From assembly GCF_001269345.1 (NCBI RefSeq), contig NZ_CXOP01000002.1, forward strand, positions 682,853 to 746,852: a stretch of DNA of 64,000 bases, given 5' to 3'. Of this stretch, positions 60,756 through 64,000 are shown one piece after another. The DNA comes from Limnohabitans sp. 2KL-27 (GTDB lineage: Bacteria; Pseudomonadota; Gammaproteobacteria; Burkholderiales; Burkholderiaceae_C). The notes beneath the pieces were generated by a model. The model saw nothing but the letters and a program-made list of their open reading frames with translations, was not told the origin of the DNA and ran no database searches. Position numbers and translations under genes: made by a program. The stretch's first letter is position 1, and the number at the start of each line of letters is the position of its first letter.

Positions 60756-63700
60756 ATGTCCCAAGGTCTCATCCGCATCCGTGGTGCCCGTCAGCACAAC
60801 CTCAAAAATATCGACTTGGACATCCGCACGGGCGAGTTGACGGTGGTCACCGGGCCCAGCGGCTCTGGCAAGTCGAGCCTGGTGTTTGACACGCTCTACG
60901 CCGAAGGCCAGCGCCGCTATGTGGAAACCTTCAGCGCCTATGCCCGCCAGTTTCTCGACCGCATGGACAAACCGGCGGTGGACAAAGTCGAAGGCGTGCC
61001 GCCAGCCATTGCGATTGACCAGACCAACCCGGTGCGCAGCTCGCGCTCCACCGTGGGCACCATGACCGAGCTGAATGACCACCTCAAGCTCTTGTTCGCT
61101 CGTCTTGGGCAGCTGTTCGACAAAGACACCGCACAGCCTGTGCGCCACGACAACCCCGACACCATTTACGCCGAACTGGCACAGCGTGCCGCGCAAGCGG
61201 GCGATCCGCGCCTGTACCTGACCTTCCCTGTGGAGTTGCCCGCCAACACCAGCGCCGAGCAAGTCGAGCAGTGGCTCTCTGCCAGCGGTTTCACCAAGGT
61301 GCAGGCCGAACGCGAAGTGGCCACCCCCACCGGCCCGCGCAAAGTGTTGGACGTGATCGCCGACCGTTTCCGTTTGGGCAAGGCCGAAAAAGCCCGCGTA
61401 GTCGAAGCCATCGAAGTGGCCCTCAAACGCGGCGGCCGTCTGAATGTGTATGTGGAGAAATTGGGGTCAGATCCCCATTTTTCTTCTGCCAGTGCGGGTG
61501 TGACTGCTTCATCTATGGATCGCTTCGTGCCTCGCGATGACGAGGGTCCTGTCATGGCGAGCGAAGCGCGGCCATCCACCTCTGAGCCGGCCAGCAGTTT
61601 CGACATCTGGCGCTTTTCCACCGGCCTGCATTGCCCCGACAGCGACCAGCGCTACACCGACCCGATCCCGTCGATGTTCTCGTTCAACTCGGCCGTGGGC
61701 GCGTGCGAGACCTGCCGGGGCTTTGGTCGGGTGATCGGTGTCGACTATGGCTTGGTCATTCCCAACCCCAAGCTCACGCTGCGGGCCGGGGCCATCAAGA
61801 CGCTGCAAACGCCCGCCTGGCAAGAAAACCAGGACGACCTGATGCGCCACGCCGAGGCCGCAGGCATTCCGCGTGACACCGCTTGGGACAAGCTGACGAA
61901 AGCCCAGCAAGATTGGGTGATCCACGGTTCGCCCGAATGGAAGGGCCGCTGGAACCACCAGTGGTATGGCGTGAAGCGCTTTTTTGAGTACCTGGAGAGC
62001 AAGGCCTACAAGATGCACATCCGGGTGCTCTTGTCCAAGTACCGCAGTTACACCGAGTGCCCGACGTGCCAAGGGGCGCGTTTGAAGAGCGAGAGCCTGC
62101 TCTGGCGCATTGGCAGCCACTCGGATGCCGATGGGGTTTTGCCGGTGGAAAAACGCTTCATGCCCGCGGGTGTGAAGTGGTCGCGTGCGCAACTCGAGGC
62201 GCTGCCGGGTTTGAGTTTGCACGACATGATGATCATGCCGCTGGACCGGTTGCGCTTGTTCTTTGACCGGGTGTCGGCGTCGGGTCATTTGGCGCAGACT
62301 GCTGTGGGTATGGCAGGGGAGGCTCCGGCCGGGGATGGGCTGGGCTCCTCATACGGCGGGGGTACGCCAAAATCGTCGCCCAGCCCATCCCCGGCCGAAG
62401 CCGTGGGTGCAGAGACGCAGAAACAGCCATCGACATCGATAGAGAAGGCACTGGACGCTCGATCGACCACAAGGTCTGCGTCAGAGCGGGGGGCGGGCGA
62501 CGATTTTGGCGTACCCCCGCCTCATGAGGAGCCCGCCCCCCGCTCTGATGCAGACCGAACCTCCGAAGAAACCACCGAAGCAATCCAGGCCAAAAACCAA
62601 GGCCCCAGCGCCGAACAAAAAGCGCTGCAACTGCTGCTGGAAGAAATCACCACCCGCCTGAAATACCTGTGCGACGTGGGCATCGGTTACCTCACCCTCG
62701 ACCGCCAAAGCCGCACCCTCAGCGGCGGCGAAGTGCAGCGCATCAACCTGACCACCGCCTTGGGCACCAGCTTGGTCAACACCTTGTTTGTGCTGGACGA
62801 GCCCAGCATCGGTCTGCACCCCCGCGACATGCACCGCATCACCTTGGCCATGCACCGCCTGCGCGATGCGGGCAACACCTTGGTGGTGGTGGAGCACGAC
62901 CCCGCCGTGATGATGGCGGCCGACCGCATGATCGACATGGGGCCTGGTCCCGGCGAGCGCGGTGGGCAAATTGTGTTTGACGGCACCACAGCCGACCTGC
63001 GCAACGCCGACACCCTCACCGGCGCCTATCTGGGTGGACGCAAGCAGGTGGGATTGGGCTTCAAGCGCATGGTGACCGACAGCACGCCGCGTTTGATTTT
63101 GGAAGGCGCTCGCGAACACAACCTGCAAAACATCAGCGTGGACTTTCCGCTGCAACGCTTGGTCACCATCACCGGCGTCAGCGGATCGGGCAAATCGAGC
63201 TTGATCCAGGACGTGCTGGCCCCGGCGCTGATGCGCCACTTTGGCAAAGCCACTGAAACCCCCGGCGCACACGACCGCCTGCTGGGGGCTGACCACCTGA
63301 GCGATGTGGTGTTTGTGGACCAATCGCCCATTGGCAAAACGGCGCGTTCCAACCCGGTGAGTTATGTGGGGGCATGGGACGCGATCCGCGAAATTTTTGC
63401 GACCGCGCCGCTGTCGCGCCAGCGCGGCTACACCGCCAGCAAGTTCAGTTTCAACGGTGGCGATGGCCGCTGCCCCACCTGCGGTGGCTCGGGCTTTGAG
63501 CACGTGGAAATGCAGTTTTTGAGCGATGTGTATTTGCGCTGCCCAGACTGCAATGGCCAGCGTTACCGTCCCGAAATTCTGGAGATCACCGTCGAGCGCC
63601 AAGCCTTGGGCCAGTCCCAGCCGCGCCACCTGAACGTGGCCGATGTGCTGGACTTGACGGTGAGTGAGGCCGCCGCCTTGTTCGCGCAAGACCGTGATGT

Positions 63701-64000
63701 GATCCGCGCCCTGCAACCCATTGTGGATGTGGGCCTCGAGTATGTGAAGCTGGGCCAGCCTGTGCCGACTTTGTCGGGCGGAGAAGCGCAGCGCTTGAAA
63801 CTCGCCGGCTTTTTGGCCGAGGCCGCCAAAAGCGCATCCAAGAGTCGCCAGAGTCTGGCGCGCAAAGGCACGCTGTTCTTGTTTGACGAGCCGACCACCG
63901 GCCTGCACTTTGACGACATCGCCAAGCTCATGAGGGCTTTGCGCAAGTTGCTCGAAGCGGGGCACTCGCTCATCGTCATCGAGCACAACCTGGACGTGAT
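60756..64000 (+). CDS. uvrA: UvrA-family excinuclease ABC subunit, partial (3' end outside window), with two in-frame inserts
   Basis: The frame is open from ATG 60756 to the window end: 1081 codons are visible and the end is missing. E. coli UvrA is 940 aa. Two ABC modules are intact: Walker A GPSGSGKSS (33-41) and GVSGSGKSS (about 806-814), signatures LSGGEVQR (about 655) and LSGGEAQR (about 1006), and Walker B LDEPSIGLHP and FDEPTTGLHF. The second zinc module, C-x2-C-x18-C-x2-C from CPTCGGSG, is complete. In the first module the first pair reads LHCPDSD, with one Cys of CxxC missing. Two low-complexity inserts lie at residues about 236-282 and 517-612, both made partly of palindromic repeats. 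It may be canonical UvrA or a UvrA paralogue. Confidence 0.9.
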   Translation, partial: MSQGLIRIRGARQHNLKNIDLDIRTGELTVVTGPSGSGKSSLVFDTLYAEGQRRYVETFSAYARQFLDRMDKPAVDKVEGVPPAIAIDQTNPVRSSRSTVGTMTELNDHLKLLFARLGQLFDKDTAQPVRHDNPDTIYAELAQRAAQAGDPRLYLTFPVELPANTSAEQVEQWLSASGFTKVQAEREVATPTGPRKVLDVIADRFRLGKAEKARVVEAIEVALKRGGRLNVYVEKLGSDPHFSSASAGVTASSMDRFVPRDDEGPVMASEARPSTSEPASSFDIWRFSTGLHCPDSDQRYTDPIPSMFSFNSAVGACETCRGFGRVIGVDYGLVIPNPKLTLRAGAIKTLQTPAWQENQDDLMRHAEAAGIPRDTAWDKLTKAQQDWVIHGSPEWKGRWNHQWYGVKRFFEYLESKAYKMHIRVLLSKYRSYTECPTCQGARLKSESLLWRIGSHSDADGVLPVEKRFMPAGVKWSRAQLEALPGLSLHDMMIMPLDRLRLFFDRVSASGHLAQTAVGMAGEAPAGDGLGSSYGGGTPKSSPSPSPAEAVGAETQKQPSTSIEKALDARSTTRSASERGAGDDFGVPPPHEEPAPRSDADRTSEETTEAIQAKNQGPSAEQKALQLLLEEITTRLKYLCDVGIGYLTLDRQSRTLSGGEVQRINLTTALGTSLVNTLFVLDEPSIGLHPRDMHRITLAMHRLRDAGNTLVVVEHDPAVMMAADRMIDMGPGPGERGGQIVFDGTTADLRNADTLTGAYLGGRKQVGLGFKRMVTDSTPRLILEGAREHNLQNISVDFPLQRLVTITGVSGSGKSSLIQDVLAPALMRHFGKATETPGAHDRLLGADHLSDVVFVDQSPIGKTARSNPVSYVGAWDAIREIFATAPLSRQRGYTASKFSFNGGDGRCPTCGGSGFEHVEMQFLSDVYLRCPDCNGQRYRPEILEITVERQALGQSQPRHLNVADVLDLTVSEAAALFAQDRDVIRALQPIVDVGLEYVKLGQPVPTLSGGEAQRLKLAGFLAEAAKSASKSRQSLARKGTLFLFDEPTTGLHFDDIAKLMRALRKLLEAGHSLIVIEHNLDV
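61462..61477. repeat. Short palindromic repeat inside uvrA
   Basis: TGGGG..CCCCA with GATCCCC/GGGGTC character (TGGGGTCAGATCCCCA) forms a 5-bp stem. It sits at the upstream edge of the first uvrA insert and encodes LGSDPH-type residues in frame. Confidence 0.5.
61516..61578. repeat. 63-bp imperfect palindromic element inserted in frame in uvrA
   Basis: The element starts TGGATCGCTTCG and ends CGAAGCGCGGCCATCCA. Its two halves are imperfect inverted repeats (GATGAC/GTCAT and CGCTTCG/CGAAGCG) around GAGGGTCC. It encodes about 21 residues, SMDRFVPRDDEGPVMASEAR, without breaking the frame. TTGCGAGCGAAGC-type palindromes are widespread intergenic repeats in many bacteria; the resemblance is by eye. 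Confidence 0.7.
62321..62402 (+). repeat. Hairpin unit A in uvrA (25-bp stem, 32-nt conserved loop)
   Basis: Left arm 62321-62345 and right arm 62378-62402 pair over 25 positions with one mismatch (C62325/A62398); the inner 20 bp are perfect (starting CGGCCGGGGATGGGCTGGGC). The 32-nt loop 62346-62377 contains GGGGGTACGCCAAAATCGTC. The frame is uninterrupted through it. Confidence 0.9.
62473..62556 (-). repeat. Hairpin unit B in uvrA, inverted relative to unit A
   Basis: Left arm 62473-62498 and right arm 62531-62556 pair over 26 positions with one G-T wobble. The arm sequence differs from unit A. The 32-nt loop 62499-62530 is the reverse complement of the unit A loop at 30 of 32 positions. 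In B the loop also holds a perfect CCTCATGAGG palindrome that is altered in A. Confidence 0.9.

Follow-up and report, generated by a model that had tools for sequence, protein, structure and literature searches.

A probable REP-like family of palindromic repeats with a kept apical core and changing but paired stems, with members inside uvrA of a Limnohabitans genome

Folded single strands of DNA serve as recognition sites in several bacterial systems. In integron attC sites and at the ends of IS200/IS605 elements, one folded strand is recognised and few letters are kept, and Rickettsia palindromic elements are palindromes inserted in frame in genes. The latter are cited in PMC3733652, whose sections on the GTAG and CGTC repetitive extragenic palindromes (REPs) describe oriented dimers, alternative paired stem letters and G-T pairs, as well as copies that lie within palindromes, inside uvrA and in other repair genes. 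According to these sections, GTAG stems measure 5-13 bp with loops of 2-20 nt and CGTC stems 8-9 bp with loops of 4-5 nt, and REPs are credited with roles as mRNA terminators or in mRNA decay or processing (PMC3733652). The transposase TnpA-REP binds single-stranded REP hairpins in a strand-specific manner, where features of the loop or of mismatches matter (PMC8266576).

The window analysed here is a stretch of 64,000 nucleotides from Limnohabitans sp. 2KL-27 (genome G000). Two hairpin units, A and B, lie in inverted orientation within its uvrA gene, and the features are as follows:

60756..64000, plus strand: host gene uvrA, running on past the window, with an open frame through A and B (TIGR00630)
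62321..62402, minus strand: hairpin unit A, comprising arms and core, with the fold of the minus strand
62321..62345, no strand: left arm of unit A, inverted-repeat arm
62346..62377, minus strand: apical core of unit A, with inner hairpin
62378..62402, no strand: right arm of unit A, inverted-repeat arm
62473..62556, plus strand: hairpin unit B, inverted relative to A
62473..62498, no strand: left arm of unit B, inverted-repeat arm
62499..62530, plus strand: apical core of unit B, with inner hairpin
62531..62556, no strand: right arm of unit B, inverted-repeat arm

The original prediction had placed two nearly perfectly self-complementary units at these coordinates, and both the positions and the arms were reproduced: the arms are 25 nt each in unit A and 26 nt each in unit B, 96% complementary in either case and 32 nt apart. 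The segments between the arms, said to be alike at 30 of 32 positions in opposite orientation, do show two differences once B is turned round. Their description as a 32-nt loop holds for the distance between the arms but not for an open state, as each carries an inner hairpin, GGCG/CGCC. Similarly, the GGGC/GCCC pairs beside the loop are common to A and B but are not fixed family-wide, where GGGT/ACCC, GGCC/GGCC and GCCC/GGGC also occur. Folded as DNA, the four single strands of A and B gave z-scores of -7.05 to -9.71 relative to 200 dinucleotide shuffles per strand, none of which folded equally well. At unit A, the strand that folds throughout the family (GACGATTTT ... ATGAGGA) corresponds to the minus strand, antisense to uvrA; it closes 25 of 25 outer pairs, one of them a wobble, and the plus strand has one mismatch. 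At unit B the plus strand is the folding strand, closing 26 of 26 outer pairs with one wobble, and the mismatch falls on the minus strand.

The host frame matches the UvrA model TIGR00630 with 854.7 bits (cut-off 729.8). Followed in the whole genome, from G000:C2:743608 onward (window 60756), it is open over 2126 aa, about twice the usual length, and its linkers gather palindromes, as A and B are joined by two more copies in the same frame beyond the window (G000:C2:747040-747119 and 748819-748898). Measured between two fixed points, UvrA linkers of the genus that are free of the element are mostly 169 nt long, with 154 nt in L205 and 214 nt in L174, and linkers with at least one element measure 247-562 nt. 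The reading frame is kept, because all tabulated linker lengths are equal modulo 3, and all 16 UvrA linkers inspected are open. The uvrA copies, which occur in both orientations, sit in the linker between modules and preserve the frame. In-frame uptake of repeats by a gene for DNA repair, which has been reported for other REPs (PMC3733652), is thus seen here once more. At site A of the loci L148 and L168, inspected by eye, the stem is largely different and still mostly paired, and the inner hairpin is formed by CTG/CAG instead of GGC/GCC. The same gene also contains a second REP-like pair, consisting of facing short palindromes at window positions 61516-61542 and 61550-61578, which by eye fit the account of CGTC REPs in PMC3733652 in the traits given there (CGTC or TGTC, a stem starting with AT and a CCA tail). 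In five Variovorax loci (L196, L202, L203, L208, L233), the same uvrA linker holds other in-frame repeats, with peptides like SPSPAGGGQGWG and SPHPNLPPEGEG.

A search of this genome and its relatives for the loop and its flanks, as suggested with the original prediction, revealed a dispersed family whose paired flanks differ between copies. Unpaired flanks were seen in 3 of 122 pattern hits (L013, L023, L120) and taken as chance; with neither a lack of further copies nor generally identical or unpaired flanks, the finding stands. In this genome, the 32-nt core occurs four times with at most 3 mismatches, a looser pattern nine times, and a structure model yields 16 matches. The looser pattern is present in 38 of 60 Limnohabitans genomes and in 4 of 40 others (42 of 100), and a reversed control pattern had one match across the same 100 genomes. 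A covariance model, which was built from 27 copies themselves found by core-demanding patterns and whose figures come without decoy control, matches 88 of 90 Limnohabitans genomes (E <= 0.001) with 0-33 copies per genome, G124 and G042 being the genomes without any hairpin match. Among 250 genomes drawn from the bacterial family, the model matched at least 34, of which at least 31 lie outside the genus, a number that has no exact denominator as the sample may include unmatched Limnohabitans; since no more than 18 candidates were scored in each genome, copy counts in this sample are likewise minimum figures. The core was seen by eye in 21 of 25 inspected loci from other genera, the remaining four being two that were viewed off the match owing to a short flank (L281, L288) and two without the core (L291, L294).

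The resulting collection comprises 292 distinct copies of 89 stem kinds, with copies of stem score <12 left out. Both this collection and the set of 122 hits were found by patterns requiring parts of the core, so that the constancy of the core partly reflects how the copies were sought. Outside the stems, no 9-mer is shared by more than 5 of 34 stem kinds (L001-L126, L237-L266), and a search of plasmid and phage collections with one 200-bp unit (L325:10457-10656) was negative. In 3 of the 10 loci scanned with Rfam, a tRNA gene neighbours a hairpin copy at a distance of 50 to 100 nt (L325:10739-10828, L326:1218-1304, L331:1262-1335).

Stem length is 22-31 bp in 264 of 292 copies, and core length is 23-36 nt in 89 representatives, one per stem kind. 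Of the 122 pattern hits, 118 were compared and fall into 17 stem kinds; four hits were left out of this comparison and six out of the mismatch count given below, because the core began otherwise than with TCCTCAT, the arms were short or the stem was below 18. Beyond the first four positions, the two arms of the best copy of each of the 17 kinds pair with each other at 16-20 of 20 positions, versus a mean of 8.0 of 20 (sd 2.1, maximum 14) for arms taken from different kinds. The 27 copies had been selected for good stems; pairing is present in 95.5% of their 648 cells, against 40-47% in slid controls. Both sides have changed at 23 of the 24 pairs of this set, with 223 double-changed cells and 2 changed on a single side; four of five measures of a shuffle test were reached by 0 of 500 shuffles, and 14 shuffles reached the fifth, which concerns further pair types. 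Within stem kinds represented by at least four copies, 95 pairing-preserving double changes stand against 92 single changes. The stems evolve by compensating pair changes around a kept core made up of GACGATTT, a small variable hairpin and ATGAGGA, and the covariation that had been proposed from A and B is thus real and strong across the whole family. The argument that the two units are not a simple inverted duplication also holds, and A and B as an inverted duplication of one unit was rejected, because different stem kinds have only the core in common.

The mismatches that do occur are unequally distributed between the strands. Read on the TCCTCAT strand, 116 copies contain 101 A-C, 13 G-T and 40 other mismatches, and the 7411 stem pairs of all 292 copies contain 213, 30 and 86, respectively. 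When each combination of stem kind, position and mismatch type is taken once, 165 A-C, 28 G-T and 67 others remain (binomial p ~8e-25), with the qualification that stem kinds may share ancestry. An A-C mismatch on the TCCTCAT strand corresponds to G-T on the opposite one, so single changes survive as wobble on the GACGATTT strand. In loci of other genera, the ratio is 52:3. It amounts to 17:0 for sense and 33:6 for antisense copies between co-directional genes, to 29:4 and 38:7 for sense and antisense copies inside frames, and to 23:3, 12:2 and 22:6 for convergent, divergent and unplaced copies, where the placements derive from a simple purpose-made gene caller. With regard to pair membership, left members show 34:7, right members 35:5 and single copies 103:17. 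The asymmetry is therefore the same in both gene orientations and in both pair members, which argues against folding of the host messenger as well as against a replication bias of one strand; a replication-strand mutation bias was rejected since both members of opposed pairs are affected. Among transitions, G>A exceeds C>T (36 vs 15) and T>C exceeds A>G (15 vs 3), and the latter excess led to the rejection of cytosine deamination alone as the source. Selection thus acts on the folding of a single strand, which is determined by the motif rather than by transcription.

In terms of stem kinds, 19 lie in sense and 18 in antisense between co-directional genes, 20 in sense and 25 in antisense inside frames, 22 between convergent genes and 9 between divergent genes. 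These placements bear on the possibility that the hairpins act in cis in mRNA as terminators, decay stoppers or processing sites, roles of the kind that PMC3733652 credits to REPs. Many copies are intergenic, and the 22 stem kinds between convergent genes would suit such roles, but the strand signature should then turn over with the direction of transcription, which it does not: the fold is not tied to the transcribed strand. Both orientations occur within uvrA, the 9 stem kinds between divergent genes fit poorly, and no T run directly follows the inspected stems (by eye). A cis-acting mRNA structure or terminator is highly improbable on these grounds and was rejected for the independence of the signature from transcription.

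The strand that folds keeps three blocks in its core, namely GACGATTT, the inner hairpin and ATGAGGA. The two outer blocks may stack under the inner hairpin as G-A, A-G, C-G, G-A, A-G, T-T and T-A. Among 179 core versions distinguished by stem kind, 142 with GACGATTT and ATGAGGA and 10 with GCCGATTT and ATGAGGC are as the stacking scheme asks; among the other 27, AACGATTT with ATGAGGA (10) and with ATGAGGC (8) fit it worse. In versions beginning with GCC, the outer G-A/A-G is replaced by G-C/C-G in 10 of 13. The inner hairpin, whose own stem varies between copies, has at least three successive Watson-Crick pairs in 59 of 76 versions (271 of 292 copies), as opposed to 38% of shuffled versions. 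A kink-turn was considered for the tandem G-A run and dropped, as a 3-nt bulge is absent.

Covariation combined with wobble tolerance on one strand is a classical mark of RNA, and the main rival of a DNA fold is accordingly a transcript of the motif strand, dispersed in many copies with a promoter of its own, that would act as a small structured RNA or as an RNA-protein binding site. The core that can be read as stacked non-canonical pairs, with the replacement of its outer G-A/A-G in the GCC versions, would suit such an RNA, as would the excess of antisense over sense copies between co-directional genes (59 vs 26, counted as copies). This excess is lost when stem kinds are counted, which show no tie to transcription (19 vs 18 and 20 vs 25), and opposed pairs would require both strands to be transcribed. 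Moreover, an Rfam search of the window stretch and 10 loci gave no gathering-score match over any copy, the sub-threshold models being nearly all microRNAs, and a known Rfam family was rejected. The original prediction had named structured RNA and single-stranded hairpin DNA as the two options, and this was the right pair. The signature alone fits folded DNA and an RNA of the motif strand alike, as an RNA of the GACGAUUU strand would leave the same marks; its independence from transcription is read as favouring single-stranded DNA, and the RNA reading is regarded as rather unlikely.

How the stems arise can be approached through orthologous sites. For the site downstream of dnaJ, megablast placed 26 of 30 loci and a second alignment all 30, with the full flank in 29. 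The pattern finds the hairpin in 11 of these, and L408 additionally has one whose core is mutated. Among the loci without the hairpin, only L417 (G111) aligns on both sides, as judged by eye, the other spacers not being alignable, and neither arm is present at this empty site. The original prediction had also suggested that the stem might be built by fold-back copying of the flank, anew at every insertion, which would account for different stems around one core. The L417 site without either arm contradicts this, as do stems shared by several copies of one genome (L325, L326) and stems common to orthologous copies across species; fold-back copying is scarcely credible and was discarded. At lysC, two genomes (G057 and G108; L436, L437) whose lysC genes share 96% and 95% identity with that of G020 are without the two-hairpin unit, the stems of which are absent from the 200 nt examined; this empty site is weak because only the lysC side aligns. 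With one both-sided (L417) and one one-sided (lysC) empty site, no excision or insertion event was observed.

The dnaJ orthologues further differ in the orientation of the core, which points one way in L405, L407, L414, L418, L423 and L426 and the opposite way in L411, L412 and L430. Since the arms are alike, the part between them turns over, and from the comparison of these loci (L405-L430) the arms seem to mediate the inversion. At the same site, L411, L429 and L430 hold two hairpins of the same orientation, the second with a decayed left arm. Template switching is known for quasi-palindromes, and the stems might be perfect only through such self-correction during replication, with no selection for folding. 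The long, nearly perfect arms and the inverted cores at dnaJ, which imply that arms recombine, are in line with this process, but it explains neither the kept core nor the wobble tolerance of the motif strand and is an improbable account of the family.

The copies are also arranged in an ordered manner. Of 66 neighbours within 330 nt, which are distinct copies rather than independent events, 55 are plus-minus, 0 minus-plus and 11 of the same orientation. A second Limnohabitans group has units of ~200 bp with two different stems, which recur nearly unchanged between ordinary genes; four such two-hairpin units lie within 12.5 kb in G020. The lysC unit of G020 and G126 (L325, L440) occupies the same site and shows several paired changes in its right stem; in each genome this stem resembles that of the genome's other units, which looks like within-genome homogenisation.

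Single copies are found inside inverted repeats with GGGGTCAGATCAACATTAAT in G031, G001, G020, G126 and other genomes. Across 34 such nested copies, identity is 97% in the outer repeats, partly by construction since these were sought allowing 3 substitutions in 20, 84% in the core blocks (ungapped) and 64% in the stems; own-arm pairing averages 95% (lowest 55%) versus 64% across copies. The GGGGTCAGATCAACATTAAT repeat was counted 67 times in G031, 53 times in G001 and not at all in G000 (at most 2 mismatches). In G031, G001 and G006, close pairs of the repeat (57 nt from start to start in several cases) are too near to hold a hairpin, and next to these empty pairs there are others, ~120 nt apart, that do hold one.

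Inverted repeats with GGGGTCAGATCAACATTAAT also flank a Y1_Tnp (tyrosine transposase) gene in G031, G006 and G001, and their presence around both the hairpin and the transposase gene makes the REP-associated tyrosine transposase a candidate partner. In the genome of the window (G000), in G028 and in G052, Y1_Tnp genes lie between inverted repeats with TTGGGGTCAGATC (L374, L380, L393). The G028 protein matches Y1_Tnp with 48.6 bits (cut-off 23) and the NCBIfam REP-associated tyrosine transposase with 78.2 bits, just under the cut-off of 80. A hairpin was found near Y1_Tnp matches in 0 of 30 loci of ~3 kb, which include G000, contain none from G020, G031, G001 or G126 and comprise two ordinary IS200-type genes; a transposase gene adjoining the hairpin was dropped as a candidate. 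A Y1_Tnp match is present in 85 of 90 genomes, often one each and two in G000, and also in the hairpin-free G124 and G042, so that co-occurrence does not single out Y1_Tnp, which is present whatever the number of hairpins.

Taken together, units A and B belong to a family of REP-like palindromes dispersed in Limnohabitans and in further genera of the same bacterial family, and it is somewhat more probable than not that their folded strand is recognised as a single-stranded DNA hairpin. The reading as folded single-stranded DNA draws on the strand specificity, the irrelevance of gene orientation, the kept apex, the pairs of fixed orientation, the genome-wide spread and the nesting in transposase-linked repeats. 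By analogy with described systems, recognition would rely on shape and the apical core, and spread on a recombinase or nuclease. The motif strand would fold into a hairpin as single-stranded DNA, a candidate single-strand DNA recombinase or nuclease would recognise it by its shape and apical core, and this enzyme would spread the repeat in the way that has been suggested for REPs and TnpA-REP. The REP-associated tyrosine transposase may be such an enzyme, as suggested by the GGGGTCAGATCAACATTAAT repeats in some Limnohabitans genomes. It is possible, and put forward tentatively, that the family represents a new class of mobile element inherited and recognised by shape, in which a single-strand DNA recombinase would read the stacked non-canonical apex (tandem G-A) together with the length and perfection of a stem free in its letters, each lineage having a stem of its own and the fold of one strand being preserved.

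Wobble tolerance on one strand, independent of transcription, provides a test from sequence only of which strand of a palindrome folds in nature, and if the reading as DNA is true, compensating stem changes would record which DNA strand folds in the living cell. Should the folded form be DNA, the principle of REPs and IS200/IS605 would be extended to elements whose stem letters are free and whose recognition core is apical, and hundreds of natural variants would be at hand for studying shape recognition.

Compared with known systems, the family is closest to the GTAG and CGTC REPs. As described for these in PMC3733652, its members are many dispersed palindromes (0-33 matches per genome), single or in pairs of fixed orientation (55:0) that are often heterodimers, with compensating stem changes and G-T pairs, in intergenic and intragenic positions including uvrA, and in part inside larger palindromes. 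Unlike the REPs of that description, the stems are mostly 22-31 bp long and the core is structured and 23-36 nt in length. Neither the foot tag, the 5-13 bp stem and the 2-20 nt loop of GTAG REPs nor the CGTC/TGTC end and the 8-9 bp stem of CGTC REPs were found. With one copy per stem kind, the 14 nt that precede the stem on the 5' side of the folding strand contain GTAG in 1 and GGAG in 2 of the 89 cases, where ~3.8 are expected for each; in the 5' flank, CGTC (4 of 89) and TGTC (0 of 89) are not enriched over ~3.8 expected, and GACG lies within the core rather than at the stem foot. A transposase gene flanked by the hairpin itself, as expected for REPs with their own transposase, was seen in 0 of the 30 Y1_Tnp loci.

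Terminal inverted repeats (TIRs) of TIRYT elements, as far as PMC3733652 and PMC6006769 portray them, resemble the hairpin-enclosing GGGGTCAGATCAACATTAAT copies, which likewise flank a transposase gene (G031, G001 and others) and fit the GGGGWSAS motif given for these TIRs in PMC3733652. The likeness is borne by the outer repeat, which flanks the transposase gene in inverted form in G031, G006 and G001, and not by the hairpin itself, which unlike the TIRYT TIR elements also occurs without GGGGTCAGATCAACATTAAT, for instance in G000. With the REPIN/BIME arrangement outlined in PMC6006769, the family shares ~200-bp units of inverted pairs repeated between unrelated genes, but within a unit the stems of the two hairpins are different and show no mutual pairing, unlike those of that outline. 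The likeness to attC sites and IS200/IS605 ends is one of analogy only, the comparison with TnpA being taken from PMC8266576, and the kept part is apical here rather than terminal as in those systems. Rickettsia palindromic elements, likened by description rather than by sequence, are in-frame palindromes as well and have other hosts. In the openly licensed literature, no paper was found that seems to describe this repeat. The family shares the way of life of REPs but not their tags, stem length or loop, and is therefore best described as REP-like and outside any named family.
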